This document shows, piece after piece, positions 9,005 through 43,702 of a stretch of 51,276 bases of DNA. Positions within the stretch are counted from its first letter, which is position 1. Every line of letters begins with the position of its first letter. This DNA is from an uncultured Pelagibacteraceae bacterium (GTDB lineage Bacteria > Pseudomonadota > Alphaproteobacteria > Pelagibacterales > Pelagibacteraceae): the NCBI GenBank assembly GCA_902526595.1, contig CABZLO010000007.1, positions 1 through 51,276 of the forward strand, given 5' to 3'. The translations under genes and the position numbers were made by a program. A model generated the notes under the pieces. It ran no database searches, had not been told where the DNA came from, and was given only the letters and a program-made list of their open reading frames with translations.

Positions 9005-10003
9005 CTATTGATTTGATCGAGAGGAAATATAAATATTTTTAATTAATTTTTTATTTAAATTTAATAAAATTGAAAACAAACTACCAAGTGCGAAAAATAG
9101 ATTAGCAAAATTAATTAATATTATAACAGTAACAAGAGTGTTAAAATTTTTTATATATCTGATAATTTCAAATATTATCATCAATTGAGCTAAGAAAAAA
9201 ATAAAAATTGTAGCTGATAATATGATCACAGATTTATAACTTAAAAAACATAGGATTGAAAAAAATACTGCAGCTATTAATGGGTACAAACTTTGATATC
9301 TAGAAAATGATTTCTTAAAATTTATCAGTTTAAAAGCAGCAGTTCCAAAGGAAAATCTTTGTATTAAAAATTTAAAAAAATTCCTTTCTTTATGATAGAT
9401 GTATAATTTACTTGAGTAAAAAACTTTAAAATCTGGATTAATTTTATAAATTTTTGAAAAGTAATCAAAGTCCTCTGATATGAATTTTTCTTCGTCCATA
9501 CCCCTATATTTTAAATAATTCTTTCTTGAAATGAAAAAGTTACAAGATTCAAGCCAGTCACAATATTGATCTTTAGCAAGATATTTTCTAAAATTTAAAT
9601 TTCCTGTAACAAAAAAAGACCTTTTAGCTAAATGAGATATTCTCTCTGAAAACTTCTGGTTTGGAAAAGGTATACTTGGTCCTCCAACTACATCAAATTT
9701 TGTTTTTTTTGATAAATAAATTACATTTTTTAACCAATATTTGTGTGGATAAGCATCTGAATCTAAAAAACCTACATAATCAGATTTAAATTTTTTAACA
9801 GCTAAATTTCTTTTGTAGGACATATTTTTTTTCCCAACAATTAAAATTTTCAAATTAAAACTATATTTTGGGATTATTTTATTTTTTTTATCTAAAACAA
9901 TTGTAACAAAAAAATTTTTGTAGATCTGGTTTTCAAGTTTTTTTAATGTGTATTTTAATTCATTACTGAAATTTATAGAGGGTATGACAATTTGAAATTT
10001 CAA
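9005..10003 (-). CDS. Family 2 glycosyltransferase with C-terminal membrane helices
   Basis: A 332-residue protein. The N-terminal GT-A domain begins FQIVIPSINFSNELKYTL and carries the metal-binding DxD-type motif in VGFLDSDAYPH (about 92-102). An SEDFDYFSK segment (about 175-183) resembles the acceptor-side ED motif of GT2 enzymes. About three hydrophobic helices follow (roughly 240-320). It probably transfers a sugar to a lipid-linked or surface acceptor at the inner membrane. It lies 9 bases downstream of the radical SAM gene on the same strand, so the two form an operon. The donor and product cannot be determined. Confidence 0.85.
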   Translation of the reverse strand: MKFQIVIPSINFSNELKYTLKKLENQIYKNFFVTIVLDKKNKIIPKYSFNLKILIVGKKNMSYKRNLAVKKFKSDYVGFLDSDAYPHKYWLKNVIYLSKKTKFDVVGGPSIPFPNQKFSERISHLAKRSFFVTGNLNFRKYLAKDQYCDWLESCNFFISRKNYLKYRGMDEEKFISEDFDYFSKIYKINPDFKVFYSSKLYIYHKERNFFKFLIQRFSFGTAAFKLINFKKSFSRYQSLYPLIAAVFFSILCFLSYKSVIILSATIFIFFLAQLMIIFEIIRYIKNFNTLVTVIILINFANLFFALGSLFSILLNLNKKLIKNIYISSRSNQ

Positions 10004-10012
10004 TTTAGTAAA

Positions 10013-11113
10013 TTAATCTAGGTTAAAGGCGGATTTTAAAAGATTGTGTTGGTATCTGTAATTACCCAATATATTATAAGACAGAGCACATTCATAAGAA
10101 CAATTACATTTAGTATCTTTAATAAATTTTTTAATTTTCTTATTTGATGTACTTTTCCATAAGTTAATAAAATTGTATTGATTATTTCTTACGTTACCTA
10201 ATTTTTTGTCTTCTAAAATTTCACATGGATAAACGTCACCGTTCGCTTTTATTATTCCAAATAAACCTCCTGCATGACACAATGATATATATTTTGGATC
10301 AAGATAAGTTTCTTTAATCATGTTCCATGAAATAAAATCTTTTTTTCTATGCAATCTGCCTTGCAGTGTATTTGTATTGTAATTAGTTATATTTCCTTCT
10401 TTCGAAAGATTTTTAATTTTATTTGTTAAAAAAGTAAAAGCATCCAAAATCTTTTTTTTCTTTTCCATGGGTGTTTTGTAAACACCTTCATCTCTCACTA
10501 TAGTACATTTTATGTTATTAATTTTATTTTCAACATGTAAATGATTAAATATATTTTCAATATTATCACAATTTTCATGTGTGACTGTTATGCTTACTAC
10601 TGCATTACAATTTTTTATTTTTTTAATTTTTTCATAAGTTTCTATACATTGGTCGAATAGATTATTAATTTTTCTAACCTTATTGTGAGCTTCAGGTAAG
10701 TCATCAATAGAAATTTGAAATGTTAATTCAATTTCTTTATCATATTCTGTAATCTCTTTAGCAAACTTTTCCACTCTATCTGGTAGACTTCCATTAGTTG
10801 TAATATAAATTGACTGTATAGTTGTATTATCAATATATTTTTTTGCGATATCAATAATTTCCTTTCTTGCAAAAGGTTCACCCCCAGTAAAATTTACATT
10901 AAGAAGTGAGTTACCTAATTTTTTTGTTAATTTTTCAATCTCCTCTAAAGACAGCTCACCCTTAAAAGTATTCTCATCGTCAAAATCAATAAAACAGAAT
11001 GAGCATCTAGCGTTGCATCTATTTGTCAAAAAGTGAACTAGACTTATTGGTTCTTCTCTAGAAATATATATATTTTTTAATACATTTAATAAATTGGCTT
11101 TTTTTGTAATCAT
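10013..11113 (-). CDS. Radical SAM enzyme with C-terminal SPASM-like cysteines
   Basis: A 366-residue protein with the iron-sulfur motif CNARCSFC (Cys33, Cys37, Cys40) and the SAM-binding GGEP at 77-80. The C-terminal third has CHAGG..., GDVYPCEILEDKKLGNVR and a final CNCSYEC cluster, the arrangement of SPASM/twitch domains that hold auxiliary clusters. Such enzymes modify peptides, sugars or cofactors. The partner glycosyltransferase downstream suggests a sugar or glycan-linked substrate, but no precursor peptide gene is visible. A TATAAT (11123-11118) lies four bases before the ATG, so the message may have almost no leader. Confidence 0.88.
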   Translation of the reverse strand: MITKKANLLNVLKNIYISREEPISLVHFLTNRCNARCSFCFIDFDDENTFKGELSLEEIEKLTKKLGNSLLNVNFTGGEPFARKEIIDIAKKYIDNTTIQSIYITTNGSLPDRVEKFAKEITEYDKEIELTFQISIDDLPEAHNKVRKINNLFDQCIETYEKIKKIKNCNAVVSITVTHENCDNIENIFNHLHVENKINNIKCTIVRDEGVYKTPMEKKKKILDAFTFLTNKIKNLSKEGNITNYNTNTLQGRLHRKKDFISWNMIKETYLDPKYISLCHAGGLFGIIKANGDVYPCEILEDKKLGNVRNNQYNFINLWKSTSNKKIKKFIKDTKCNCSYECALSYNILGNYRYQHNLLKSAFNLD

Positions 11114-11220
11114 CCTGATTATAACATAAATTTATATAACTATCTAAACAACAACCAAATTTATCACTAATTTTAATCAATAACTAGCCTTTATTAAAAC
11201 TTTGGGATAAAAAAAAACAA

Positions 11221-12843
11221 ATGTTAATATCAAATTTATCTTTAAAAAAAAAAATATTTATTTTTTGTTTTTTCTTTTTAATTTTGAGTATTGGATTATT
11301 GTTTTTAAATAATAGACCTTATTATATTTACCTTTCTGATATAGAGCCCGCTTACTACATGTCTGCATATTTAATTATGAATAGTGAGCTACCTGTTTTT
11401 TATTTTCATCCTGCAACGTTATTTCAATATATAAGTGGTTCATTTCTTAGCATATTAAATCTAAATAATTTAAATCAAATAAATTTATCTTTAAATTATT
11501 TAAAGTTACTAGCTATTATTTTTAACTTAATTTCTATAATTTTTTTCTTAAAAATTTCAAATAGGTATAAATTAAAAAATGATTATAAAATTTTGATATG
11601 CTGTATTTTTTATCCCGCTACATTATTATATGTAACATATTTTGGAGTTAACAGCATTGTCCTTGGTTTATCGTTAATTTTATCTTCTATATACATTAAG
11701 AATCATTTTAATAATTTTAATTCTTTAATAAGTTTATCAATAATTTCAGGAATATGTCTTAATTCGAAATTAATTTTTTTACCTTGTCTTATAATTATAT
11801 TTATAAATATTTTCTTTAATGGAAATAAATTTTTAAATTATAAAAATTTTAAAAAGGTAATAATCTACACTGTCTTTACAGCATTAACTTTTTTTCTCGT
11901 AGGTTTTAAAATGATGCACACTTATCCAGAAATCCTAATCAAATTATTTAACAGACCAGAAGGTAATCTTGGTATTTACAATTATATAATTGTTTTATTT
12001 TTAGCTTTATTAATTACATTTTTTTATTCTAAAAATGAAAATATTTTAAATAATAAAATAAAAATTTTTTTTTTATTTTTCTTTATAATTTATTTTATAT
12101 TTATAATTTTTAAATATTGGTCAATAGATCAGTTACCTACATTCTTTAGATATCAGGCTGCCTTTTATATTTTTGCTTTAATTTTAATAAATTTAAAATT
12201 TAATTTAACCTCAAAATTCTATAATATTTTTATACCTATTATACTAATTTTATTTTCTGTGACCCACTATTCAGCTTATACAAATACAGAAAATCAAAAA
12301 AATATTTCATTATCATACAAAGATTTTTTACAAAAAAAAATATCAAATAATTATTACATATATTTTTGGACTGGTTCTGGGAATGACTCATATGATGCTC
12401 AAAATTTTATACAATGGGCAGATCTAAGATATGGGAATAGTTATATAAAAAAAAATGATATTTTAAATTTTGCTAATAAACAGATTTATAATATTCGTTT
12501 AGATATTAATAATTATGATATATCTAGAAACTTTAAAGAAAAAAATAATTTAAAAAAACGAATTAAAAAAGTTTTAATAAAGTATAAAATTTTTCCCAAA
12601 GTAAAATTTAAAAAAAATTATTATAATATTAATACAAATATTTCCGGTAAATGTTTATTGTTAATTTTTACCAAATTTGAATTTGATATTGAAATTAATA
12701 AATTAAAATCAAATGAGTTGTTTGTTAATAAACCAATTTTATTTTTAGAGAAAATGTCATCTAAAAAGCTAAATATGAGTAAGGTATACTTAGGAGATAG
12801 AGAATTTATTTATTTTACTGAGAAAAATAAAAAATGTAATTAA
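11221..12843 (+). CDS. Polytopic membrane protein, probable GT-C type glycosyltransferase
   Basis: A 540-residue protein with roughly ten to twelve hydrophobic segments in the first 350 residues and a lysine-rich, apparently soluble C-terminal 190 residues. After the first helix an acidic loop (YLSDIEPAYYMSAYLI, about 38-53) fits the Asp/Glu-containing first periplasmic loop of GT-C transferases (ArnT/PMT-like). I cannot assign a family with certainty. It diverges from the radical SAM/GT2 operon across a 107-base gap, so it may belong to the same surface-glycan function. Confidence 0.6.
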   Translation: MLISNLSLKKKIFIFCFFFLILSIGLLFLNNRPYYIYLSDIEPAYYMSAYLIMNSELPVFYFHPATLFQYISGSFLSILNLNNLNQINLSLNYLKLLAIIFNLISIIFFLKISNRYKLKNDYKILICCIFYPATLLYVTYFGVNSIVLGLSLILSSIYIKNHFNNFNSLISLSIISGICLNSKLIFLPCLIIIFINIFFNGNKFLNYKNFKKVIIYTVFTALTFFLVGFKMMHTYPEILIKLFNRPEGNLGIYNYIIVLFLALLITFFYSKNENILNNKIKIFFLFFFIIYFIFIIFKYWSIDQLPTFFRYQAAFYIFALILINLKFNLTSKFYNIFIPIILILFSVTHYSAYTNTENQKNISLSYKDFLQKKISNNYYIYFWTGSGNDSYDAQNFIQWADLRYGNSYIKKNDILNFANKQIYNIRLDINNYDISRNFKEKNNLKKRIKKVLIKYKIFPKVKFKKNYYNINTNISGKCLLLIFTKFEFDIEINKLKSNELFVNKPILFLEKMSSKKLNMSKVYLGDREFIYFTEKNKKCN

Positions 12844-12870
12844 TCTTAATTTAATCAAAATTTAAAAAAA

Positions 12871-14166
12871 ATGTTTTTACATACCAAGTTAGAAAATAGA
12901 AAAGATCCAATCAAAATTGCTTTTATTGGATGTGGTAAGTTTGTGAGCATGTTTTTGGCTCAATACAATCATTTAGATAAAATACAAATAGACACCATAG
13001 TTGATATTAATGTAAATCAAGCTATCAAAAATTGTTTGAAAAGTGGATTGAATGAACAAACTGTTAAAGGAATAAATTTCTCAAATTCATTAGAAGAAGT
13101 TCTTACTAGAGACATAGAAATTTTTATTGAGGCAACAGGTAATCCTATAGTTGGAACTGTCCATGCAACCAAGATAATAAAAAATAAGAAACATGTAATA
13201 TTGGTAAATGTAGAAGCAGACATAACATGTGGTAAATACTTGTCTGATCTTGCAAAGGATAAAGGTGTTATTTGTTCAATGGCCTATGGAGATCAACCAT
13301 CTTTAATTCTTGAACAAATAGAATGGGCAAGATTAAATGGATTTTCAATAGTTTGTGCTGGTAAAGGTACTAAATATCATCCAAGTTTTGAATATTCTAC
13401 ACCAGACACAGTATGGGGACATTATGGTTTAACCAAAGAACGAGCTGAAAAAGAGTCGGGGATGAACCCAAAAATGTTTAATAGTTTTTTATGTGGAGAC
13501 AAATCGGCTATTGAGATGTGCGCAGTTAGTAATGCAGCTAATTTAAAATGTCCAAGTAAAGGACTAACTTTTCCACCAGTAGGTGTTTATGATATTGCAA
13601 AAAAAATGATTCCAAAAAATGATGGTGGTTTAATTGAATTTAATGGGCAGGTAGAGGTTATTTCAAGTATAGATTTAGAAAAAAAAGATATTCCAAATGA
13701 TTTAAGATGGGGCGTTTATATTGTTATTAAAGGACAGAACGAATATGTCAAAAATTGTTTTAAAGATTATGGGATGGTAACTGATGCCTCTGGAAACTAT
13801 TCAGCAATATGGAGACCTTATCACTATATTGGATTAGAGTTAGCACAATCTGTTTATTCAATTGCACTAGACAACAGAGCAACAGGCTATACAAAAAATT
13901 ATAACGCTGAAGTTGCAAGTTTTGCCAAGAAAGACCTTAAAGCAGGTGAAAAATTAGATGGAGAGGGAGGTTTTTGTGCAAGAGGCCGATTAATTACATC
14001 TGAAAAATCTAAAAAAGAAATGATTTTACCACTAGGACTTACAGATAATGCTGTTTTAAAAAGAGATATAGATAAGGATGAGGTAATTAAACTTGATGAT
14101 GTCGAGTTAAATCTTCCGTCTGAAGTAACTGAGGCAAGAAACTACCAATATAATTTATTAAATTAG
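12871..14166 (+). CDS. Homoserine-dehydrogenase-like NAD(P)-dependent oxidoreductase with C-terminal SAF domain
   Basis: A 431-residue protein. The Rossmann fold starts at about 17 (IKIAFIGCGKFVSMFLAQ) with the acidic residue of strand 2 in TIVDINVNQ. A homoserine-dehydrogenase-like central domain follows (IFIEATGNP, VNVEADITCGKYL). The last 80 residues (AEVASFAKKDLKAGEKLDGEGG..., LKRDIDKDEVIKLDDVEL) have the SAF pattern seen in FlgA, AFP-type and sialate-synthase proteins. The combination matches the predicted homoserine dehydrogenase group with a SAF domain; the true substrate is unknown. Its stop codon overlaps that of the convergent GH63 gene by two bases. Confidence 0.8.
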   Translation: MFLHTKLENRKDPIKIAFIGCGKFVSMFLAQYNHLDKIQIDTIVDINVNQAIKNCLKSGLNEQTVKGINFSNSLEEVLTRDIEIFIEATGNPIVGTVHATKIIKNKKHVILVNVEADITCGKYLSDLAKDKGVICSMAYGDQPSLILEQIEWARLNGFSIVCAGKGTKYHPSFEYSTPDTVWGHYGLTKERAEKESGMNPKMFNSFLCGDKSAIEMCAVSNAANLKCPSKGLTFPPVGVYDIAKKMIPKNDGGLIEFNGQVEVISSIDLEKKDIPNDLRWGVYIVIKGQNEYVKNCFKDYGMVTDASGNYSAIWRPYHYIGLELAQSVYSIALDNRATGYTKNYNAEVASFAKKDLKAGEKLDGEGGFCARGRLITSEKSKKEMILPLGLTDNAVLKRDIDKDEVIKLDDVELNLPSEVTEARNYQYNLLN

Positions 14167-15434
14167 TTATATTTCTTTTCCATTATTAAGTCTAAAAACA
14201 AAGAAGCCGTCCAAGAAAAGTTACTTGCCCCAAATGCTTTTCCAGTTTTAAAACTGTAGTATTCAAAAAAGCCATTTTTTTTAATTAAATTAATAGTTTT
14301 TTCTTTAATTTTATTAGCAAATTTCTTATCTTTATTTTTTAATCCTTGATAGATAATCCAATTACAATTTATCCATACTGGACCCCTCCAGTAACGTTTT
14401 TCCTCAAATTTTTTATGATTAGGCTTAATACTAGAAAATATGTATTTCTTTGTTTGATTATGATTTTTCAAACTTTTAATTATTTTTTTATTAATAGTTT
14501 GATTTTTTAAATTAGCAAATAAAATAAAATAATTAGTTATTGAAGGTACAATAATTTTTTTTTTATTTTTTATATCATAATTCGTAAAAACTCCTTTTTT
14601 TTCATTATAAAGTTGTTCAATCCGATTTTCTGATTTTAAAATAAATTTGTTTAACTTATTATGCTCTAAATTGAATGATTTAAGTAATTCTAATAAATCT
14701 TTATTAGCTCTCAAAAATATTGAATTAAAACCTACATCAACAACATTAAACATTGATTTATTATAAAGTTTTTTTGGATTGTATTTATTTTTTCTTAAAT
14801 GATTTTTAATTGTTACATATCTATCGTAATCTGAATCTAAGGGTCTGTATTCTGGATTTATTACCTTATTATCTCCTCGTTTGTATTTTAAGTTTTTTTC
14901 AACCTTAACTTCATTCATAGAATAGTCCCAAAGTGGAGAATTATCATATCCACTTTCCCAAGGATGTAATATCGAAACTAGTCCTGTATTTTTTGGGTCT
15001 CTATATTTAATTAACCACTCATGATATTTTTTTAATTTTTGAACTATTGACTTAATTTTTACTTTGTCTGAAATTTTGATTTTATTTTTATCTAAAATTT
15101 TCTTTAAAATAATGGCAAGAACAGGTGGTTGAGTTATTCCTGATGAACGTATTTTGTTTCCACAATTCCATACCGAGTGATTTGGATAATAATTTGTACT
15201 TAAATTATGGAATAGAATATGAGGTATCATACCATCTTTCCATTGACCCCTTAAAAGAGTTGTTATTTCATCAAGTGCATACTTTAGATTAAAGTATGAA
15301 TAGCCAAGGGAAATAAAGCCAGAGTCCCACTTCCATTGCGCAGGATACAATTTGTTATTTGTAGGCATTGTATAACCTCTTTTTTTATTACCTAATAAAA
15401 CTTTTTTTGCCTCTTCTATTAATTTATTTCTCAA
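14163..15434 (-). CDS. GH63-type glucosylglycerate/mannosylglycerate hydrolase
   Basis: A 423-residue (alpha/alpha)6 glycosidase. Signatures of the GH63 glycerate-glycoside hydrolases are the substrate region LYPAQWKWDSGF (29-40), HPWESGYDNSPLWD (157-170; probable acid Asp164), ERYWRGPVWINCNW, and the C-terminal GFFEYYSFKTG with probable base Glu391. It should cleave glucosylglycerate or mannosylglycerate to hexose plus glycerate in the cytoplasm. The start is TTG at 15434, four bases overlapping the permease stop (TTGA). The next Met is residue 23, inside a conserved region, so the TTG is preferred. It is the last gene of the transport operon. Confidence 0.82.
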   Translation of the reverse strand: MRNKLIEEAKKVLLGNKKRGYTMPTNNKLYPAQWKWDSGFISLGYSYFNLKYALDEITTLLRGQWKDGMIPHILFHNLSTNYYPNHSVWNCGNKIRSSGITQPPVLAIILKKILDKNKIKISDKVKIKSIVQKLKKYHEWLIKYRDPKNTGLVSILHPWESGYDNSPLWDYSMNEVKVEKNLKYKRGDNKVINPEYRPLDSDYDRYVTIKNHLRKNKYNPKKLYNKSMFNVVDVGFNSIFLRANKDLLELLKSFNLEHNKLNKFILKSENRIEQLYNEKKGVFTNYDIKNKKKIIVPSITNYFILFANLKNQTINKKIIKSLKNHNQTKKYIFSSIKPNHKKFEEKRYWRGPVWINCNWIIYQGLKNKDKKFANKIKEKTINLIKKNGFFEYYSFKTGKAFGASNFSWTASLFLDLIMEKKYN

Positions 15435-16624
15435 CCTTTGACACTCCCTGCAGTAAGACCACTAACTAGATATTTTTCAAAATAAACAAAAATAAATAGA
15501 ACAGGTAAAGTTACAATAACTGAGCCAGCCATTAAATATTGTCTAGGTGTTTCTGCATCACCACTTAAATATTGTATGGCCCTTGAAAGAGTAAAAGAAT
15601 TAGGGTTATCTAGAAACATTAAAGAAAATAAAAATTCATTCCAAGCTATCATAAATACATATAAAGCCACAGAAGAAATTGCAGGAATACTTAATGGAAT
15701 TATAATTTTAGAAATTATTCCAAACCAACTAAGTTTGTCTAATATAGCTGCCTCTTCTAATTCTTTTGGGATACTTTTAAAGTAACCTTGAAGCATGTAT
15801 ATTGCTACAGGAAGTGTCGTGGCTGTATAAACAATTAATAATCCTTCTATAGAGTTCCTTAGACCTAACTGACTAAAAATTGTATATAAAGGAATTACCA
15901 AGACAATTGCTGGAAACATATAAATTATTAATATTGATGTTGACATAAATGTTTTACCAAAAAAGTTTAATCGAGCAATTGCATATGCTGCTGGAATTGC
16001 AAAAAGAAGAGTTATGATTACGGTTCCTACAGATACAATAGTGCTGGTCAAAATATATTTACCAAATTTATAAGATTTAAAGATTACAAAATAGGAATTA
16101 AATAAGTCCTTCAAATCTTGACTGAAATTAATACTAAAATCTAAGGGGTTAACTAATAAAGCAATTTGAGTTTTAAAACTCGTTATTAACATCATGTAAA
16201 AAGGGAAAAGAATTACAAATGAAAAAAATAAAATACCAAATAAAGTTAAAAAATCAAAAAAGATTACTTGTGTTGAGTGTTCTTGCTTTAAATCTTCAAA
16301 ACTATATTTATTTATTTTATTTACAAAAAAATATAAAACTAAAAAAATACCAATATTGTACCATAATGGTAACTTTTGAATAATATATCCATCACAGACT
16401 ACAAAAATTAAAGAAAAAATAATTGATTTATAAAAAATTTTAATTTTATTGCCTATTCTTAAGTGAGCAAAAGATATTAGAAGACCAAAAATAAATATTA
16501 TTTGTAAATTAAAGTTTTGAATATCTAATCCTTGTAAGGTTGCTAATATTTTAAATATAGAAACTAAGAAAATTAAAAAAAATGAGGATATTAATGCAAA
16601 TAAAATTAAATTTTTAGTTTTCAT
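15431..16624 (-). CDS. ABC sugar transporter permease, MalG-like, with N-terminal extension
   Basis: A 397-residue inner-membrane permease. The typical MalG-like core (about 280 residues) starts near residue 125 with FDFLTLFGILFFSFVILFPF. The ATPase-docking EAA loop is ELEEAAILDKLSWFGIISK, followed by AWNEFLFSL, characteristic of CUT1 permeases. About 120 extra N-terminal residues contain roughly four hydrophobic segments and are not found in ordinary MalG/UgpE proteins. It overlaps the MalF-like gene by 11 bases and the GH63 gene by four. It forms the membrane channel with the MalF-like partner. Confidence 0.92.
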   Translation of the reverse strand: MKTKNLILFALISSFFLIFLVSIFKILATLQGLDIQNFNLQIIFIFGLLISFAHLRIGNKIKIFYKSIIFSLIFVVCDGYIIQKLPLWYNIGIFLVLYFFVNKINKYSFEDLKQEHSTQVIFFDFLTLFGILFFSFVILFPFYMMLITSFKTQIALLVNPLDFSINFSQDLKDLFNSYFVIFKSYKFGKYILTSTIVSVGTVIITLLFAIPAAYAIARLNFFGKTFMSTSILIIYMFPAIVLVIPLYTIFSQLGLRNSIEGLLIVYTATTLPVAIYMLQGYFKSIPKELEEAAILDKLSWFGIISKIIIPLSIPAISSVALYVFMIAWNEFLFSLMFLDNPNSFTLSRAIQYLSGDAETPRQYLMAGSVIVTLPVLFIFVYFEKYLVSGLTAGSVKG

Positions 16625-17873
16625 CTACTCTCTTTCCTAAAAGCTTGAAGTAAAAAAACATAAATAATAAAAGTAAAACAACTATTACTATTGAAACAGC
16701 CGATCCCATTCCAATATCAGATATTGCAAAACCTTGTTGATAAACATTAATTGGTAAAGTTCTAGTACCTGAGGCACCACCAGTAAGTAAGAAAACATCT
16801 TCAAACTTGTTAAAATTCCAAATAAACCTTATCATAAATAAAATTGATATTACTGCTGTAATTTGAGGAAGCGTTATTTTAAAAAACTTTTGAAACGGGC
16901 TTGCTCCGTCTACATCAGCTGCTTCATATAATTCTTTTGGAATTGCCTGAAGTCTTGCAAGAATAAATAAAAAAGCTAAAGGAAAATATCTCCAAATTTC
17001 AAACATAATTACCGTCGTAAGAGCTAGTCTTAGGTTAAAGTCAAAACCTAAAATATTGATCTCAATGTATTTTTGTCCAAGTAAATTTATTGGCGTCTCT
17101 ATAACCTGATAATTGATTAATAAGCTATTAAGTGTTCCACTATTTGGATCTAGTAGGAGCTCCCATGTATAAGCTAAGGCTACAACTGGAGCAACATAAG
17201 GAAAGAGCAAAACACTCCGCATAAAAGTTCTTCCATAAAATTTTTGATTAACCATTTGAGCTGTTAAAATTCCAAAGATGATCGAACCAACAGTGCCAAA
17301 AAATGTGTAATAAAAAGTTGTGAGGAGTAGGTCTACAAACTCATCATCAAATAAAACTTTTTTAAAATTTTTTAGAGTAAAAGAGGTATTAAGCAATATA
17401 TTATCAGATGTTCCATTTAACTTAGGTTTTGTTGATTTAAGTGCGTTTTTATTTATTTTTGAGCCATCATTTGTTTCAAAAACTACATGAAAATTTTCTC
17501 TATATTTTGCTGGCCAATTGCCAAATTTACACTTTAATGAATTATTTTTGTAATCACATCTTGTATCTAATTTTTCAATCTCAAAATTTTTTGGGAATTT
17601 ATCTTGAAATGAAACATTTCTGATCTCTTGAAGTAAGGAGCTATTTCTTAATTTATATAAAATCTTTATTTTTGATGGATCTTCTGAGATAGATTTAACA
17701 ATTTTTTTAGCTCTTGGTTCTGGAATTCTAATATCTTTTAATTCAACTTCTTTAAAACTAATCCAAACATTTGCAAAAATAGGAAATAGAATTATTGCAA
17801 AAACTAGAGCAACTGCAGGTAAAGTTAAAATATATGCAGTTTTCTTTTCTGTATTAGCTAAAGTATCTTTCAT
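16614..17873 (-). CDS. ABC sugar transporter permease, MalF-like, with large periplasmic insert
   Basis: A 419-residue permease. Helix 1 (about 12-33) is followed by roughly 150 mostly hydrophilic residues, with the later helices starting near 185, like the P2 insert of E. coli MalF. The EAA loop is LYEAADVDGASPFQKFF and is followed by FIWNFNKFEDVFLLTGG, a CUT1 signature. It pairs with the MalG-like protein. The ATG immediately follows the T-tract of a hairpin, and no Shine-Dalgarno sequence is visible. Confidence 0.92.
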   Translation of the reverse strand: MKDTLANTEKKTAYILTLPAVALVFAIILFPIFANVWISFKEVELKDIRIPEPRAKKIVKSISEDPSKIKILYKLRNSSLLQEIRNVSFQDKFPKNFEIEKLDTRCDYKNNSLKCKFGNWPAKYRENFHVVFETNDGSKINKNALKSTKPKLNGTSDNILLNTSFTLKNFKKVLFDDEFVDLLLTTFYYTFFGTVGSIIFGILTAQMVNQKFYGRTFMRSVLLFPYVAPVVALAYTWELLLDPNSGTLNSLLINYQVIETPINLLGQKYIEINILGFDFNLRLALTTVIMFEIWRYFPLAFLFILARLQAIPKELYEAADVDGASPFQKFFKITLPQITAVISILFMIRFIWNFNKFEDVFLLTGGASGTRTLPINVYQQGFAISDIGMGSAVSIVIVVLLLLFMFFYFKLLGKRVDEN

Positions 17874-17909
17874 AAAAAAAGCGAATAAGTAATCTTATCC
17901 GCTTTTTTA
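17874..17909 (-). terminator. Hairpin plus T-tract between binding-protein and permease genes
   Basis: The inverted repeat 17880-17889 / 17894-17903 has a four-base loop and a ten-pair stem, with one G-U pair when read on the minus strand. It is flanked by A7 (17874-17880) and T6-7 tracts, so the minus-strand RNA has a stem followed by seven U residues. It resembles a leaky intrinsic terminator or a 3'-stabilising stem after the binding-protein gene. The U-tract runs directly into the start codon of the downstream permease. Confidence 0.75.
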
Positions 17910-17923
17910 ATTAATTTAAATTA

Positions 17924-19252
17924 TTAGAATTTAGCTAGTGCTTTATTAATCATATCAACAGCCTCATCAACATCGATTTGGTCGTCAATATAAAGTCTAG
18001 TGATTCTATTTATAAATTGAGAATTAATGACTTTTGATGCTCTTGATAGCTCACCTTCCTTAACTCCCCATCTGTTTGCAGTATCTAAACCAGCAACAAT
18101 GTTATTTATAACATCAGGGTCATAAAGATTTGACAAAGGAGCTTTTCTATCAACTCCAACTGGCAATTTACTCCAAGCTTTTGTAAATGCCTCTGGATCA
18201 CTTGCATTTCCTCTTCTTACTGGGAATTTGCCTTCTGGAGCAATAGATAAAGTACTTGTGTATCCTTCATCCATTGAATACATGATAAATTGTTTTGCTT
18301 CATCAGTATCCGCATCAGCTGTTATACCAAAGTATCTAACATCTGCCCAAGCAGCACCTTTTTTATTACTTGGTCCACTAAAATTAGTTATGAAGCCTGT
18401 TTTAGATGCAAGTTCAGGTGAAGTTGGATCACTATTTATTGTTGGAGGAGCAGAGTCTCTTAAACCTGCAAGCTCATCCATAATAAATGGAGACCAAATT
18501 ATCATTGGTGTTTTTCCGGCAAAATAAAGTGCTCTTGATTGTTTCCAATAAAGTTCACCTGGAGGACTAGCTTTTGCTATGACTTTATAAAACTCTAATG
18601 CCTCCTTTAACTTTTTACCTTGCTTTTTAATTCCACCTTTTTTTACTATGTTAACACCATTTGCTAAAAGAACATGTTCCAGAACTTGACTCATGAAATT
18701 TTCATCAGTCTTAGTAGCAGCAACAAATCCAAACATTCCATTTGTTTTTGAGAGTTTTTCAACAGCTTTCACTATGTTAGCATAACTTGTTGGTGGTTCT
18801 AGTTCAGCGTTATCAAAAAGATCTTTTCTGTAAACAACCATTTGTGTCCATCCATCAACTGGAACAGCAGCAATTTTTGATCCTGACTTAGCCATGTTTA
18901 AAGCACCGGGAGCAAAAGTATCTTTACCAAGTGCCTTTACAACTGCGTTATTAGCATCAACATCTAAAATTCCAGCTTCTGCCCATGGTAAAACGTATTG
19001 TAGAGTATGATATATCACATCTGGTAAATCACCAGCTGCCGCAGCAGCAGTTGCTCTTGTTCCCAATTCCTTTTCTTCTATTGGAATTACATCAACCTTA
19101 ATACCTGTCTTAGCCTCAAAAGCTTTGGCCATTTCTTCTTGTTTAGCCATTCGAGCAGGCTGAACTTCTGTAGTCCAAAATTTAATATCTGCATAAACGA
19201 CATTAGTAATGAATAATGAAATTATGCAAAATATTTTAATTATATTTTTCAT
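17924..19252 (-). CDS. Periplasmic sugar-binding protein of the ABC transporter (MalE/UgpB-like)
   Basis: A 442-residue family-1 extracellular solute-binding protein. The signal peptide MKNIIKIFCIISLFITNVVYA is cleaved after residue 21. Features include IKFWTTEVQ, FEAKTGIKVDVIPIEE, AAAAGDLPDVIYH and GITADADTDEAKQFI. The open frame extends 18 codons upstream, but I choose the Met at 19252 because it follows a strong AGGAGGAG ribosome-binding site and starts the signal peptide. Ligand inferred from context: glucosylglycerate, mannosylglycerate or a related glycoside. The hairpin after it should let it be made in excess over the permeases. Confidence 0.92.
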   Translation of the reverse strand: MKNIIKIFCIISLFITNVVYADIKFWTTEVQPARMAKQEEMAKAFEAKTGIKVDVIPIEEKELGTRATAAAAAGDLPDVIYHTLQYVLPWAEAGILDVDANNAVVKALGKDTFAPGALNMAKSGSKIAAVPVDGWTQMVVYRKDLFDNAELEPPTSYANIVKAVEKLSKTNGMFGFVAATKTDENFMSQVLEHVLLANGVNIVKKGGIKKQGKKLKEALEFYKVIAKASPPGELYWKQSRALYFAGKTPMIIWSPFIMDELAGLRDSAPPTINSDPTSPELASKTGFITNFSGPSNKKGAAWADVRYFGITADADTDEAKQFIMYSMDEGYTSTLSIAPEGKFPVRRGNASDPEAFTKAWSKLPVGVDRKAPLSNLYDPDVINNIVAGLDTANRWGVKEGELSRASKVINSQFINRITRLYIDDQIDVDEAVDMINKALAKF

Positions 19253-19373
19253 TTCTCCTCCTGAGATTTTTTTTAAAAAAGTACTATATTTGACAGCATG
19301 TCGCAAATGTTTGATAAAAATTAAATACTAACAATTAATAGTTGTATTATTATTTTTATTTTTTTTAAAAAAG
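19253..19373 (-). promoter_or_regulatory. Probable promoter/operator region of the transport operon
   Basis: This 121-base gap separates gpgS from the binding-protein gene, while most other gaps in this minus-strand block are under 15 bases. It contains an inverted repeat GACA-GCA-TGTC at 19292-19302 within TTGACAGCATGTCGCAA, a TATAGT-like -10 just downstream on the minus strand, and the strong ribosome-binding site. A separate start site with a repressor operator is plausible; the operator is degenerate and the call is tentative. Confidence 0.4.
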
Positions 19374-20594
19374 CTATAAATAATGTCTGTTATCTTCATT
19401 AACAGCTTTTTCTAATCTAATTAGAAAATCTGGTATTGCACTTTTTACTCTACTCCATGTAGGTATAAAAGGAGCATCCATTGGGTTTAGATAAAAATCC
19501 TCTCCAGCTCTAATGATATTACTTGAAAATAATTCAACTGCTTTTTCCTCTGTGTGAGAGTCAAATTTTAGACCATTCATTTCAGCATCAGCTCTGTAAG
19601 CATCTATAAGATCTAAAGCAGATCTATAATATGTTGCTTTTAAAGATCTTAATTGTTCTCTACTAAATGAATGACCTTGTGTTGCTAATTTTTTAATAAA
19701 AGTTTTTATAATATCTATAGACATTCTTGATAATCCTTTTTTTTCATCATCTAGAGATAAATCTTGATGTTTATGATCATAGGTATCTGCTAAATCTACT
19801 TGGCAAATATTTTGTGGAGAAAAATTTCTCTGCATTTCAGACAAAATACCAATTTCAATACCCCAGTCTGATGATATTCGAAGTTCAGGTAAAATATTTC
19901 TCCTAAATGAAAATTCACCTGCCAAAGGATATTTAAAAGATTTCATAAAATCTAGGTAATCACTTTTGTCAATAGTTTTTTCTAAAGCATTTAATAAAGG
20001 AAAAACTAATAGTCTTGCCACACGTCCATTCATTTTATTGTCAGCCACTCTTGGGTAGTAACCTTTACAAAATTCAAAATTAAATAATGGATTTACAACT
20101 GGATAAAATAATTTTGCTAACATTCTTCTATCGTAAGTTTTGATATCACAATCATGTAAAGCTACCGATCTAGCACTATCTCTAGCAATAGACATACCTA
20201 TGCAATACCAAACATTTCTTCCTTTGCCTTGTTCATTTGGTGCTAATCCTTTATTTTGTAATTCTTTATCTAACTTTTTTAAATTAGGACCATCGTTCCA
20301 TAAAATAGTAAAAGGAGTCTGCAATTTTTCAAAAAAAGTCCAAGCCTTTCTCGCTTGTGCTTCACTTGCTTGATCTAACCCTATAATAATATGATGTATG
20401 TAATTAGTTTTACTTATCTCTTCCACAATTTTAGGTAATGCATCACCTTTTAATTCTGAATAAAGACATGGCAAGATAAGTTCCATCTTCCTTTCTTTTG
20501 AAAAACCTAAAAGTTCTTTTTCTATTTGGTCTAAAGATTTTGTTCCAAAATCATGAAGCGTTGAAATTATACCATTTTGAGAAAAATCACTCAT
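19374..20594 (-). CDS. gpgS: Glucosyl-3-phosphoglycerate synthase (GT81-like)
   Basis: A 406-residue soluble GT-A glycosyltransferase. GpgS hallmarks occur in order: GKGRNVWYCIG (123-133), metal-binding DCD (148-150), FCKGYYPRVADNKMNGRVARLL (175-196, shortened: FxKGYY then GRVARLL), KYPLAGEFSFRR (221-232), DWGIEIGIL (243-251) and YDHKHQ (272-277). The family transfers glucose from NDP-glucose to 3-phosphoglycerate. The product is dephosphorylated to glucosylglycerate, a compatible solute. The gpgP homologue lies eight bases upstream on the same strand. A mannosyl donor cannot be excluded. Confidence 0.85.
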   Translation of the reverse strand: MSDFSQNGIISTLHDFGTKSLDQIEKELLGFSKERKMELILPCLYSELKGDALPKIVEEISKTNYIHHIIIGLDQASEAQARKAWTFFEKLQTPFTILWNDGPNLKKLDKELQNKGLAPNEQGKGRNVWYCIGMSIARDSARSVALHDCDIKTYDRRMLAKLFYPVVNPLFNFEFCKGYYPRVADNKMNGRVARLLVFPLLNALEKTIDKSDYLDFMKSFKYPLAGEFSFRRNILPELRISSDWGIEIGILSEMQRNFSPQNICQVDLADTYDHKHQDLSLDDEKKGLSRMSIDIIKTFIKKLATQGHSFSREQLRSLKATYYRSALDLIDAYRADAEMNGLKFDSHTEEKAVELFSSNIIRAGEDFYLNPMDAPFIPTWSRVKSAIPDFLIRLEKAVNEDNRHYL

Positions 20595-20602
20595 AATTAA
20601 TT

Positions 20603-21409
20603 TTAGTAATTTTTATTTATTTTAACCAGAGCCATTTTGATCACATCTGCCCAGCCCTCCGGTGATGGCTTATTTGTTGCTATTAAATCATTTATTGGAA
20701 TTTGATCTAATGTAAATTTATCATTAAATACTAAACAGGGAAAATCACTCACTTTGAGCATATCTAAATCGTTATAATTATCACCAACTGCTATTATTTT
20801 TATATTTTTGTTATTTTTTTTAAAAAATCTTACAAATACTTGAAGTGCTTTAGCTTTATTTACCTTATCAGTTAAATTAATAACTCTACCACCTTCCTGT
20901 AAAGCTAAACCTTTTTTTTTGACAATTTTAAATAACTCATTTTTTTCACTTTTAATTCCATCAAATATAAAAGGAATTGTATATTTACGATCTAAAGCCA
21001 TTTCAAGTTTTTGGTCCTCCAAACCAAAAATTAAGCTTTGTTTTTTTTTCTCCATTTTAGATAACCATTTGCATTTACTCTGTAAATTTACTGGAACAGA
21101 CATTTCAAACACTTTTAATAAATTATCCTTCTCTCTACTGAGAATTAATTCTTTAGGTAAATTTGAATTTACTAGATCTAAACCATTTATAGCTGCACCG
21201 TTTTCTGAAATGTAAGGTAATGCTGCTCCAAGTTCATTATTAAAATCTAAAATTTCTTTTTCCGTTTTACTTGTGTTAGGAATTATAAAAATACCTTTGG
21301 AAAGTAATTGTTTTATATAGTCTTTAATCTCCTCAAATTTAAAAGTATCTCTATGAAGAAGTGACCCATCAAGATCAGTAAATATCAAAATATTAAATTT
21401 TTTTTTCAT
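20603..21409 (-). CDS. gpgP: Glucosyl-/mannosyl-3-phosphoglycerate phosphatase (HAD-IIB, MpgP-like)
   Basis: A 268-residue HAD phosphatase. Nucleophile and acid are Asp12 and Asp14 in FTDLDGSLL. Motif II is FIIPNTSKTEKEI, the substrate region is LPYISENGAAI (64-74), and motif III/IV is VGDNYNDLDML (208-218). The MpgP/GpgP subgroup has this ENGAAI pattern. It would remove phosphate from the gpgS product to release glucosylglycerate. First gene of the minus-strand gpgP-gpgS pair, divergent from pcs across an 89-base gap. Confidence 0.85.
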   Translation of the reverse strand: MKKKFNILIFTDLDGSLLHRDTFKFEEIKDYIKQLLSKGIFIIPNTSKTEKEILDFNNELGAALPYISENGAAINGLDLVNSNLPKELILSREKDNLLKVFEMSVPVNLQSKCKWLSKMEKKKQSLIFGLEDQKLEMALDRKYTIPFIFDGIKSEKNELFKIVKKKGLALQEGGRVINLTDKVNKAKALQVFVRFFKKNNKNIKIIAVGDNYNDLDMLKVSDFPCLVFNDKFTLDQIPINDLIATNKPSPEGWADVIKMALVKINKNY

Positions 21410-21498
21410 TTATAAATATTTATAAAATTAATCTTTGCGAATTACTACCGCGACAAGAATTTATCAGCAAAATTTTTATTAATAGGTTAAAAAAATAA

Positions 21499-22257
21499 AT
21501 GCTAAAAAATAAAAAAGAATTAGACATTCTTCGAGCTTGGTCTGTACACTTGTTAACATGCTCGGGGTTAATAGCTGGTTTTTTTGCTATTACATGCATA
21601 TTTAATAATAATCTCACATCAGTTTTTTTATTTTTGGGAATTGCATTATTAATTGATGCAGTTGATGGTACATTGGCTAGAAAATTAAGAGTTTCTTTAT
21701 TTGTAAAAAATATCGATGGGAAAATGCTTGATAGCATAATTGATTTTTTTAATTACATAATAATTCCATCTGTAGTGATATATTGGTTTAAATTTGTACC
21801 TACACCTTTTGAAATAATTATACCTTCAATTATATTAATTATATCAGCAATATCATATTCGAACACTAACTTGATGACTTCAGACAACTTTTACAAAGGT
21901 TTTCCTTGTATCTGGAACATATTACTTTTTTATTTATACATATTTGACCTATCTCAGGTGTATAATTTATTTATAATATCTATTTGTATATTGTTAAAGT
22001 TTATACCTATCAAATTTATTCATCCGTTAAGAGTTAATAAATATAAAAATTATTCTTTTACGTTTATGGTATTATGGTTTATTTCATCATTGAAAATTTT
22101 ATTAAGCTCATTATTTGTTCTTAACAATACTTTTGATTATTTATTTCTAGGTATATGGTTAATATCAAATATGTACTTTATTTATCTTACTATCTATGAG
22201 CTTTATCGTTATGTATTTAAAAATATTTATTTAAAAATGAAAAAACAAAATTCTTAG
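21499..22257 (+). CDS. pcs: Phosphatidylcholine synthase (CDP-alcohol phosphatidyltransferase)
   Basis: A 252-residue inner-membrane protein with about seven to eight helices. The CDP-alcohol phosphotransferase motif is complete: Asp53, Asp56-Gly57, Ala60-Arg61, Gly74, Asp78 and Asp82. Beyond that motif, several Pcs-specific segments match rhizobial Pcs as I know it: RAWSVHLLTCSG, DGTLARKLRV, FYKGFPCIWN and FIHPLRVNKYKN. Pcs condenses CDP-diacylglycerol with choline to give phosphatidylcholine and CMP, so exogenous choline is required. It converges on the small membrane-protein operon with a three-base gap between stops. Confidence 0.87.
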   Translation: MLKNKKELDILRAWSVHLLTCSGLIAGFFAITCIFNNNLTSVFLFLGIALLIDAVDGTLARKLRVSLFVKNIDGKMLDSIIDFFNYIIIPSVVIYWFKFVPTPFEIIIPSIILIISAISYSNTNLMTSDNFYKGFPCIWNILLFYLYIFDLSQVYNLFIISICILLKFIPIKFIHPLRVNKYKNYSFTFMVLWFISSLKILLSSLFVLNNTFDYLFLGIWLISNMYFIYLTIYELYRYVFKNIYLKMKKQNS

Positions 22258-22260
22258 TTT

Positions 22261-22650
22261 TTAAATTAGAAGAAATACTAAACAAATCATTTGAACAAAA
22301 TTAATAAGGACAGATAGAAAATGTGAGTATTTAAATTTTTTATCCTGTTTTTCATCTCTATATTTGTTAATTAATGGCATTAATAAATAGTTCGAAGTAG
22401 CAAATAAAACTGTAATTAATAATATAAGATAAAAATCAATTCCTATCTTACTCAACAATATAAATGCTATGAGAACAATAAAACTTATCCCTAAATTAAC
22501 ATTATAATAAAATGGGAATATTCTTCTTACAAACTTTCGAGCATTATTCTCATCTAATGTGGTAAAGACAACAGGTGCTATTACAAACGAGAAGAATAAC
22601 ATTATTCCTAAAATCATGGAGGTCAAATAAACGGTAATTTGTTCAATCAT
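22261..22650 (-). CDS. DUF4149-like small integral membrane protein
   Basis: A 129-residue protein with four predicted helices. The start (LTSMILGIMLFFSFVIAPVVFTTL) followed by RKFVRRIFPFYYN matches the DUF4149 / TMEM205-like pattern with its FxxFP-type turn. Function unknown. Its ATG overlaps the stop of the preceding 49-codon gene (ATGA), and it is the last of three consecutive small membrane-protein genes. Confidence 0.75.
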   Translation of the reverse strand: MIEQITVYLTSMILGIMLFFSFVIAPVVFTTLDENNARKFVRRIFPFYYNVNLGISFIVLIAFILLSKIGIDFYLILLITVLFATSNYLLMPLINKYRDEKQDKKFKYSHFLSVLINFVQMICLVFLLI

Positions 22651-22796
22651 AATTTGTTTTCTATTAAATTTTCTTCTTTCATTTTTTTTTTTGCTTTATT
22701 TTTTTTATCACAATATCTCTTAAAAATATAAGCTGCTGATACACCACCAATTAGAATAAATTTTAATATCTTTAATTTAATTAGTGTTTTAATCAT
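22647..22796 (-). CDS. Small single-helix membrane protein (49 residues)
   Basis: Read directly from the minus strand: MIKTLIKLKILKFILIGG, then VSAAYIFKRYCDKKNKAKKK and an acidic/basic tail. One membrane helix (about 9-24) is followed by a Lys-rich cytoplasmic tail. The ATG lies two bases after the upstream gene's stop, and the stop overlaps the downstream DUF4149 start by four bases (ATGA). This phasing on both sides is strong support for a real gene despite its length. No function recognised. Confidence 0.65.
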   Translation of the reverse strand: MIKTLIKLKILKFILIGGVSAAYIFKRYCDKKNKAKKKMKEENLIENKL

Positions 22797-22798
22797 GA

Positions 22799-23002
22799 TT
22801 AAATATCAAATTTTTCTAATAAGAGGTGAATTACTAAATTGTAGAGAAATACAAAACAAGAAATATAGAATAGAAAAATTATTCCCTTAGAATTAAATAT
22901 GTATCCCGTTGAGGTTAAAAGTACAATAAATAGGCTAATTGATAAAGCAAGCTTTGATTGTGATTTTTTTTTTAAGTGAGATTTTAAAATATCTTTTTTC
23001 AT
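22799..23002 (-). CDS. Small two-helix membrane protein (67 residues)
   Basis: Begins MKKDILKSHLKKKSQSK, a basic cytoplasmic N terminus, then two hydrophobic helices (about 18-36 and 42-60) and a short end. It opens the minus-strand trio of small membrane proteins and is separated from the next gene by two bases. No family recognised. Confidence 0.6.
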   Translation of the reverse strand: MKKDILKSHLKKKSQSKLALSISLFIVLLTSTGYIFNSKGIIFLFYISCFVFLYNLVIHLLLEKFDI

Positions 23003-23112
23003 TTATCACAATGATAAGTATTAAAGATATTTATTCATCGTTAATTTTGTCCTACTGAGACATTCTGAATGTTCATTAATATTTATAAAATATTCAAATA
23101 AATAAAAATTTT

Positions 23113-23210
23113 ACTTATTCAACATATTCAATTATAAATAATGGCATAAACACTCATGAAATTCATTAATGCCCTCGTGGTGAAATTGGTAGACACAAAG
23201 GACTTAAAAT
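23113..23210 (+). repeat. Direct repeat, copy 1 (tRNA-Leu promoter plus 5' half)
   Basis: About 98 bases that recur at 25970-26067. The final 40 bases (tRNA part) are identical. The preceding 58 bases differ at about seven positions by eye, including the -35-like hexamer (ATATTC here, TTGTTC in copy 2). Similarity stops abruptly after the tRNA anticodon loop. Confidence 0.85.
23171..23210 (+). pseudogene. Truncated tRNA-Leu(TAA), 5' half only
   Basis: These 40 bases equal positions 1-40 of the intact tRNA-Leu at 26028: acceptor 5' strand, D arm, anticodon 5' stem and the loop with TAA. The following sequence has no 3' anticodon stem, variable arm, T arm or acceptor complement, so it cannot fold as a tRNA. 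It is most simply the displaced half of a tRNA gene used as an integration site. Confidence 0.88.
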
Positions 23211-23417
23211 AGTTTGAGTTGAGGAATTTCAGAGTCCCTAATAGTCTTAATCCCTTATAATCCCATAACTTTTAAAATTGTTGGATTATTTTTATTAGAA
23301 AATATTAATAATAAATTTTGTTAAAATAGTAGCTAACTAGTAACCAGGGAGTTAAATCAAATAGCCATTTTTTTTAAGCAAATAGACTCAATGTTCAAGA
23401 TTTGATAGTATTATATT

Positions 23418-24524
23418 ATGAAAAAAATTTTGGTTATTATATTATTAATTTTTATCTCAAATACAGTTCTTAACGCAGAAACAATTAAACCAAAAAAAAC
23501 ACCACTAAAAAAATTATCCAAACAACTAGGCAATGGAGAATTAATTAAGATTAATTCATATCAAGTTTCTGATTATAAAGGCATTATGGAGGGCTGGTAT
23601 AAAGAGAGTCCAATAATAGTTGATGCTCTTATTACTTATCCAGAGGGAGAAGGTCCATTTCCTTTATTATTAATCGTTCATAGTAGTGGTGGACCAGGAG
23701 AATTTACTGAAAGTTGGTTAGAGTTTATGAGAGATCAACAAAAACCTTTGTTAGACATGGGAATAGCAACAATGTATTTAGATAATTTTTCTGCGAGAGG
23801 TGCAAAACATACTTATTTAGATCAATCAAAAGCATCTTTGTGGTCTACTTATATAGATATGTTTATGGCGTTGGATTATCTCAGTAAGAATCCAAAAATA
23901 AATATTAAAAAAGTTGGTATCTCTGGCTATTCACGTGGAGGAAACCTTTCAATTATGGCTGCAGAAAAAAGATTGAGAGATAAATTAGTAAGCAAAGATC
24001 TTTATTTCGCTGCGTCTCAGCCAAGATCTGCCGAATGTGGAATTTCTGGAATGTTTAGAAATCCAACTCCAGTTAAGGAAACTAAAATTTGGTATGTACA
24101 TGGTTTAGCTGAGGATTATACTTTACCAGGTCCGTGTGTAGAAATAATGGAAAAAATGCAAGCCAAAGGTGCTGACATTAAAATTGATTTGAGAGAAGGA
24201 TGGTATCATTTATTCACAGGAAATTATGAACCTGAGTTTTCAAAAAGGACTCAATATTTTTGGAAGTGTACTAATTTTTACACAGAAGATGATGGTAATC
24301 CTAATAAAGAGTTTCTTGATTTAATTTTAAAAAATACAAAAATAAAAAGTTTGGATGAATTTAATGAGTTATCACGTAAAAATCCAAGAAAAGCTTTTAA
24401 AACAATGTTCAAGGGTCTTAAAAAAGAAAATTGTATTGGAAAAGGTGTTACAGAAGGAGGTAACCATGGAAAAACTTTTATGCCAGAGTATTTAGCTTTT
24501 TGGAGAGAAAATTTACTAAATTGA
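23418..24524 (+). CDS. Exported dienelactone-hydrolase-like alpha/beta hydrolase
   Basis: A 368-residue protein with a Sec signal peptide (MKKILVIILLIFISNTVLNA, cleavage near 20). The nucleophile elbow is GYSRG with Ser172. An oxyanion-type segment is LIVHSSGGPGEF. The probable acid and His lie in HGLAEDYTLPGPC and GWYHLF. It is longer than classic dienelactone hydrolase (about 240 residues), with an N-terminal extension and a C-terminal region rich in charged residues. It likely cleaves an ester or lactone in the periplasm; substrate unknown. It lies inside the tRNA-bounded segment, 38 bases ahead of the amine oxidase. Confidence 0.82.
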   Translation: MKKILVIILLIFISNTVLNAETIKPKKTPLKKLSKQLGNGELIKINSYQVSDYKGIMEGWYKESPIIVDALITYPEGEGPFPLLLIVHSSGGPGEFTESWLEFMRDQQKPLLDMGIATMYLDNFSARGAKHTYLDQSKASLWSTYIDMFMALDYLSKNPKINIKKVGISGYSRGGNLSIMAAEKRLRDKLVSKDLYFAASQPRSAECGISGMFRNPTPVKETKIWYVHGLAEDYTLPGPCVEIMEKMQAKGADIKIDLREGWYHLFTGNYEPEFSKRTQYFWKCTNFYTEDDGNPNKEFLDLILKNTKIKSLDEFNELSRKNPRKAFKTMFKGLKKENCIGKGVTEGGNHGKTFMPEYLAFWRENLLN

Positions 24525-24562
24525 ACTAGTTTAATAAAAAGTATGTTTTAAATGATAAATTA

Positions 24563-25927: not shown

Positions 25928-25969
25928 CTCAAGTTGGAATGTACACCTAACTATAAATTAAAAAAATTT

Positions 25970-26067
25970 ACTTATTACACTTGTTCAATTATAAATATTA
26001 GCATAAATACTCATGAAATTCATTAATGCCCTCGTGGTGAAATTGGTAGACACAAAGGACTTAAAAT
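25970..26067 (+). repeat. Direct repeat, copy 2 (functional tRNA-Leu promoter plus 5' half)
   Basis: Partner of 23113-23210. It includes a TTGTTC -35-like hexamer at 25981-25986 and an ATAAAT-type -10 near 26003, about 20 bases before the tRNA, so this copy keeps a plausible promoter and continues into the complete tRNA. Confidence 0.85.
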
Positions 26068-43696: not shown

Positions 43697-43702
43697 AAAA
43701 TT

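Follow-up and report, generated by a model that had tools for sequence, protein, structure and literature searches.

Which solute is served by a cluster of genes that joins predicted enzymes of glycosylglycerate synthesis to a sugar-type importer and a hydrolase, and whether that solute is made, taken up or consumed by the cell, are the questions raised by contig CABZLO010000007.1 of an uncultured Pelagibacteraceae bacterium of the SAR11 group (assembly GCA_902526595.1; 1.04 Mb, 41 contigs, 84% complete). The contig, 51,276 nucleotides long and analyzed as a whole (the window, contig C7), carries on its minus strand, from position 21409 down to 14163, the genes gpgP, gpgS, a periplasmic binding protein (SBP), permeases A and B, and the hydrolase GgH. 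A first-pass annotation had described these six consecutive genes as a complete locus to make, import and degrade glucosylglycerate (GG) or mannosylglycerate. All six reading frames were confirmed, with families assigned by Pfam and NCBIfam, and chance is excluded as the origin of the arrangement because six full-length genes recur in the same order in L063, L064, L074, L098, and L106 (L and G numbers denote loci and genomes of this survey). The genes, their families, a conserved active site and the recurrence of the linkage are direct observations, as is the replacement of the hydrolase by an enzyme bearing the signature of GG phosphorylases. With a probability of roughly three in four, the locus would represent the GG economy of a SAR11 bacterium, comprising synthesis, import and splitting of this compound.

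The sequence of the hydrolase does not decide between GG and mannosylglycerate; its exchange for a phosphorylase does. The genes were scored in 397 genomes of the family, many of them incomplete, hence absences are weaker than presences (thresholds of 1e-3 for GgH including fragments, 1e-60 for SBP and GGaP, and 1e-20 for GpgS). In SBP genomes without GgH, a protein of roughly 574 residues (GGaP) is encoded next to the transporter or following gpgS; it belongs to GH13_18, the sucrose-phosphorylase branch of GH13, and is unrelated to the GH63-type hydrolase. The motif TETN (found by pattern) and the loop-A Glu within YEAN (equated by eye with PYELN in the L171 protein) are present in 8/8 SAR11 GGaP sequences inspected; (T/S)ETN at strand 5 together with the loop-A Glu constitutes the signature of GG phosphorylases (PMC7178133, PMC10608839; here and below, statements drawn from papers refer to the available parts of their text). 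GgH and GGaP occur together in 0/397 genomes (Fisher test, 1.6e-13, uncorrected for kinship), and a search for GGaP in the window's own genome found none. In L024 and L050, whose SBPs are 99.5% identical and whose flanking DNA matches at 95% and 89% on the two sides, the same slot holds GgH in one and GGaP plus an FMO-like gene in the other. A tree of the SBP shows at least four partner changes, which is also the maximum possible with its four GGaP rows (29 of 114 loci after removal of near-copies with the same label; labels refer to the enzyme within 7 kb of the SBP, being GgH in 96, GGaP in 10 and none in 8). Since two unrelated enzymes replace each other beside one importer, the ligand is narrowed to GG, and the earlier choice between two solutes is narrowed with it: the hydrolases take gluco- and mannosylglycerate, strict GGaPs have GG as sole substrate (PMC11009771), so that the exchange points to GG as the substrate common to both enzymes and hence as the predicted ligand of the transporter.

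The distribution of the genes indicates which part of the locus is the common one. SBP was detected in 157 genomes, GgH in 123, GpgS in 90 and GGaP in 71, and 191 genomes have none of the four. The commonest combination with any gene is SBP and GgH without GpgS or GGaP (85 genomes, including G063, a single contig of 99% completeness); the others with SBP are SBP, GpgS and GGaP (28), SBP, GgH and GpgS (24), SBP and GGaP (10), SBP alone (9) and SBP and GpgS (1), and those without it are GpgS and GGaP (30), GgH alone (9), GgH and GpgS (5), GGaP alone (3) and GpgS alone (2). SBP and GgH thus co-occur in 109 genomes (48 with SBP and no GgH, 14 with GgH and no SBP), and either enzyme is present in 147/157 SBP genomes and 87/90 GpgS genomes. 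The 80 named loci are those nearest to the window SBP and were not sampled at random; all are from SAR11, nearly all being labelled uncultured Pelagibacteraceae, Pelagibacterales or Pelagibacter and one Alphaproteobacteria only. In 74 of them permease B is followed by GgH, and five end at a contig edge. Because SBP with hydrolase and without gpgS is the commonest state, synthesis is an add-on to an import/breakdown unit: the common unit is SBP-PermA-PermB-GgH, which gpgP-gpgS joins in a minority. Co-conservation of the six genes as one unit, as first proposed, is therefore not what the relatives show. The core function is probably to scavenge GG for carbon, because import and splitting are all that is detected in most relatives, with synthesis added at the same site in the window strain and a minority of others. 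GpgS is associated with GGaP (58 genomes together, P = 1e-33) and not with GgH (29 genomes together, P = 0.80), so synthesis pairs mainly with the phosphorylase and the window's synthesis plus hydrolase is the less common combination.

Genomes that depart from these pairings were examined individually. Ten of the 157 SBP genomes have neither enzyme; in the seven inspected (G024, G159, G306, G125, G155, G283, and G343; G223, G300, and G369 were left out) the contig ends where the enzyme could lie. Among the 14 genomes with GgH and no SBP, six (L183-L186, L189, L190) break off within the transporter; in four others gpgP-gpgS-GgH is uninterrupted by a transporter (G140/L049 in full; G216, G262, and G378 as short stretches), and the remaining four (G217, G226, G313, G381) are, judged by coordinates, fragments or contig ends. 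The arrangement gpgP-gpgS-GgH without an adjacent transporter is found at the same site in L005-L008 and L049, that is, synthesis and breakdown only. GpgS is accompanied by neither enzyme in 3/90 genomes (G036, G155, G299).

Import requires further discussion, as the locus contains the binding protein and two permeases of a CUT1 importer (Pfam) and an ATP-binding cassette (ABC) importer requires an ATPase. A PF00005 search of the own genome found no ABC ATPase on contig C7, and to this extent the description of the locus as complete did not stand. A MalK-type ATPase of the same genome is encoded on contig C38 (L039), and G143, a close relative, has a MalK-type ATPase between gpgS and SBP, as in L095, L096, L097, and L111. 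The ATPase-less order of the window is counted as real because it recurs in the five loci listed above; an orthologue of the C38 ATPase, 84–97% identical, is encoded elsewhere in 4/5 of these genomes, and in the fifth (0.8 Mb) a search found only a 52% paralogue. An assembly fault as the cause of the missing ATPase was dropped on the grounds of these five records and four orthologues. The ATPase is preceded by a SnoaL-domain gene on C38 and in L143-L145, and in 26/80 named loci SBP, A, B and GgH come immediately after the SnoaL-domain gene and the ATPase. The simplest reading would be a move of SBP-A-B-GgH to the gpgPS site that left the ATPase behind, and the C38 ATPase is the likely partner of the window transporter. 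The separated ATPase (L039/C38, L143-L145) faces a histidinol-dehydrogenase-like gene, and a similar gene faces the GgH end in L189.

The individual proteins agree with these assignments to different degrees. GgH matches Pfam PF22422 ("MGH1-like") at E 1.4e-87 (295 bits, cut-off 27) and, among solved chains, Thermus MgH (2z07, E 1.7e-94) and mycobacterial GgH (5ohc, E 7.7e-59). The motifs HPWESGYDNSP and FFEYY, already pointed out in the initial description, were confirmed and contain the Asp and Glu that are catalytic in the solved relatives. These residues (Asp182 and Glu419 in mycobacterial numbering) and the contacts Y36, W40, W42, D43, Y88, Q115, G180, R216, Y222, Y375, and W376, listed as strictly conserved substrate contacts of mycobacterial GgH (PMC6608630), are kept in 37/37 aligned rows (36 SAR11-locus representatives plus the window protein, itself one of the 36 as L003 and so counted twice). 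The hydrolase is non-decisive as to the solute because these active-site residues are all conserved and the position of mycobacterial Gln434 is occupied by Phe, as in the Thermus enzyme. No signal peptide is seen in GgH. GpgS matches NF040724 over its full length (E 3.3e-109) and has no Pfam match; in NCBIfam it matches GpgS models only. DxD is a metal-binding motif, and the DCD of the window protein aligns opposite DSD of a solved GpgS. GpgP matches TIGR01486, the mannosyl-3-phosphoglycerate phosphatase family, at E 2.9e-46 with 157.9 bits, just under the cut-off of 164.75. The SBP is MalE/UgpB-like, and a glycosylglycerate would be an unexpected ligand class for it, predicted from gene context as in the first-pass annotation; its AlphaFold model (32 close relatives as input) has a mean pLDDT of 46.8. 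Its start is probably ATG 19252 and not the TTG 19306 of the listed frame, because a plain signal peptide results on inspection of the sequence. Both permeases outgrow the matched Pfam domain, with about 195 extra N-terminal residues in A and about 200 in B that look like additional membrane segments and a periplasmic insert.

The unit also occurs beyond SAR11. In a wider sample of 381 genomes from the class, SBP matches (E <= 1e-30) were found in ten: the own genome, one 86%, seven 53–69% and one 33% identical. SBP, A, B and GgH are present in 6/7 loci with a 53–69% identical SBP, which belong to other alphaproteobacterial families; an ATPase stands beside the transporter in six of these seven, the ATPase near L168 belongs to a different permease set, and L169 also carries gpgP and gpgS. 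A LacI-type regulator adjoins the SBP in 6/6 non-SAR11 loci tested. In L171 (33% SBP) a GGaP with PYELN and TETN follows, and L170 (86% SBP), a 5.2 kb contig of the same length as L136 with SBP, A, B and GgH, may be a stray SAR11 contig. Long reading frames in L164 and L171 were considered as permease-enzyme fusions and dropped, as no permease query matches their N-terminal halves and the permease slot of L171 is filled by a separate 320-residue frame; they look like out-of-frame extensions. On balance, a dedicated GG ABC importer coupled to an interchangeable GH63-type hydrolase or GH13_18 phosphorylase is favored for SAR11 and several other Alphaproteobacteria.

Three other explanations have to be weighed against a GG economy. 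The transporter and the hydrolase could serve mannosylglycerate, or both solutes equally, as scavenged carbon, with GpgS synthesis a separate matter. Among solved chains the hydrolase is indeed closest to Thermus MgH (320 bits against about 200), the Phe in place of Gln434 is found in 37/37 rows, and gluco- and mannosylglycerate are split by Thermus MgH to much the same extent, whereas mycobacterial GgH prefers GG and does not cleave glucosylglycerol (PMC6608630). In addition, L168 (10867–12048) and L169 (11629–12810) carry beside the transporter a gene of the GlcNAc-2-epimerase family, which includes mannose isomerases; this is a hint that mannosylglycerate may be relevant there, the epimerase-family gene possibly acting on its mannose. 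Against this stand the pairing of the same transporter elsewhere with a GG-phosphorylase-like enzyme, once in the same slot, and the linked synthase, which matches GpgS models even if, among solved chains, a mannosyl-3-phosphoglycerate synthase scores best (E 2.5e-6), and the proposal is considered quite unlikely. It is very unlikely that the importer handles another sugar (trehalose, maltose, sucrose or similar) and lies beside GG genes by an accident of operon shuffling: a CUT1 binding protein cannot be assigned a ligand from its sequence, SAR11 loci are evidently shuffled, and a screen of YcjN with commercial sugars found no ligand (PMC11543891), so relatives offer no positive proof, but GgH or GGaP is linked in 147/157 genomes, directly in 74/80 named loci, and in six other alphaproteobacterial genomes. 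Finally, the importer might merely recapture GG leaked by the cell itself while the hydrolase trims the internal pool, scavenging from others being unimportant. Synthesis, import and breakdown do lie side by side in the window genome and several others; the 85 SBP genomes in which GgH but neither GpgS nor GGaP was detected, together with the LacI-type regulators outside SAR11, typical of catabolic operons, make this unlikely.

Several observations weigh against a GG economy as such. GgH reaches 318.2 bits against a cut-off of 550 for the NCBIfam GluglyHdase equivalog NF047898, and GpgS 365 bits against the naming cut-off of 700 for NF040724. To these are added the resemblance of the hydrolase to a Thermus enzyme that also accepts mannosylglycerate, the lack of association between GpgS and GgH, and the use of sucrose by some GH13_18 GG phosphorylases, for example one related bifunctional enzyme (PMC11009771). 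The Fisher tests on the 397 genomes treat related genomes as independent, kinship being uncorrected. L117 has the transporter followed by another gene, and L163 the transporter, with neither GgH nor GGaP beside it in either case. A DUF4147 glycerate kinase is absent in 4/4 genomes, other glycerate kinases not having been searched.

If the GG reading holds, GpgS would join activated glucose to 3-phosphoglycerate and GpgP would strip the phosphate to yield GG, a negatively charged nitrogen-free compound that presumably acts as an osmolyte. The SBP would capture GG from seawater, leaked or made by others, the two permeases would import it, driven by the MalK/UgpC-type ATPase encoded elsewhere (presumably that of C38), and the hydrolase, probably cytoplasmic, would split it into glucose and D-glycerate. 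A glucokinase (PF02685) is encoded in 1/4 genomes, the own genome not among them, and a ROK kinase, which might phosphorylate glucose, in 4/4. On this view, GG produced by Prochlorococcus and by other SAR11 cells would serve as a standing carbon currency in nitrogen-poor surface waters of the ocean. A specific importer would link two of the most abundant groups of marine microbes by way of a single named molecule that can be traced isotopically. The exchange of hydrolase and phosphorylase would determine if glycosidic-bond energy is conserved in the form of glucose 1-phosphate, and this difference lends itself to comparison with habitat; orphan binding proteins of this SBP branch, possibly including YcjN, would gain a candidate ligand.

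The features of the locus are collected in Table 1. Permeases A and B overlap by 11 bases, and permease B and GgH by 4. The convergent oxidoreductase gene at the GgH end also adjoins gpgPS-containing loci in several relatives. An Rfam search over positions 10000–26000 of the window gave no match, and a promoter scan gave 31 matches against a shuffled mean of 42.7, that is, no excess, so no promoter was read from it. Elsewhere on the contig are a phosphatidylcholine-synthase-like protein adjoining the locus (21499–22257; scores under NCBIfam cut-offs), a 761-residue protein with a PQQ-type dehydrogenase beta-propeller and a cytochrome c domain (6698–8983), and a housekeeping stretch with RNA polymerase beta and beta' subunits and elongation factor G (34426–45781).

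Table 1. Positions and assignments of the features of the locus in the 51,276-nucleotide window.
Feature	Positions	Strand	Size	Assignment	Basis
gpgP	20603..21409	minus	268 aa	HAD-type glucosyl-3-phosphoglycerate phosphatase	TIGR01486; Hydrolase_3 PF08282
gpgS	19374..20594	minus	406 aa	GT81-like glucosyl-3-phosphoglycerate synthase	NF040724; alignment with solved GpgS and MpgS chains
SBP	17924..19252	minus	442 aa from ATG 19252 (probable start)	periplasmic binding protein	SBP_bac_8/SBP_bac_1
Permease A	16614..17873	minus	419 aa	MalF/UgpA-like	PF00528 (BPD_transp_1); UgpA and MalF models
Permease B	15431..16624	minus	397 aa	MalG/UgpE-like	PF00528 (BPD_transp_1); MalG model
GgH	14163..15434	minus	423 aa, TTG start	GH63-type glucosylglycerate/mannosylglycerate hydrolase	PF22422
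D164 codon of GgH	14943..14945	minus		catalytic acid (= D182 of mycobacterial GgH)	alignment; roles from PMC6608630
E391 codon of GgH	14262..14264	minus		catalytic base (= E419 of mycobacterial GgH)	alignment; roles from PMC6608630
DRL/SAF-domain oxidoreductase	12871..14166	plus		convergent; outside the pathway, site marker	

Parts of this system have counterparts in well-studied organisms. Thermus thermophilus MgH (TTHA0978, 2z07) is the closest solved relative of GgH and shares its Phe, but was published as a mannosylglycerate hydrolase, and we know of no link between it and an importer of the window type. The GgH of Mycolicibacterium hassiacum is likewise GH63-type, with the same catalytic Asp/Glu and glycerate-binding residues, and mycobacterial GG is linked to nitrogen limitation; in contrast to the SAR11 locus, scavenging is merely suggested and no importer is named in the available text, and Gln434 stands where SAR11 has Phe (PMC6608630). 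The GH13_18 GG phosphorylases (YcjM and those of Meiothermus and Spirochaeta; PMC7178133) have TETN and the loop-A Glu in common with SAR11 GGaP, whose loop reads YEAN instead of the canonical PYELN. E. coli YcjN ranks within the top three solved chains matched by the SBP profile, over most but not all of the protein, and YcjN/YcjO/YcjP form a CUT1 transporter beside the GG phosphorylase YcjM, in an operon that, unlike the window locus, serves several glucosides (PMC11543891).

In the ocean, GG synthesis genes have already been published for offshore SAR11 genera (PMC12636525); in the main text of that paper, supplements apart, "ABC transporter" and "phosphorylase" do not occur and the lone "hydrolase" concerns purines. 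Judging from titles and the beginnings of abstracts, no GG importer and no SAR11 GG hydrolase was found described in the open-licence literature. From its title, a 2010 study by Klahn reportedly concerns GG in marine cyanobacteria from nitrogen-poor waters. Such cyanobacteria make GG (PMC11631117, PMC3686209), and SAR11 has been proposed, in general terms, to consume osmolytes of phytoplankton (PMC3686209). The GG operon of Prochlorococcus resembles the window locus in bringing together GG synthesis, recycling and a putative transporter, and differs in being cyanobacterial and in having a single transporter gene; uptake of external GG has been proposed for this organism as well (PMC11631117).

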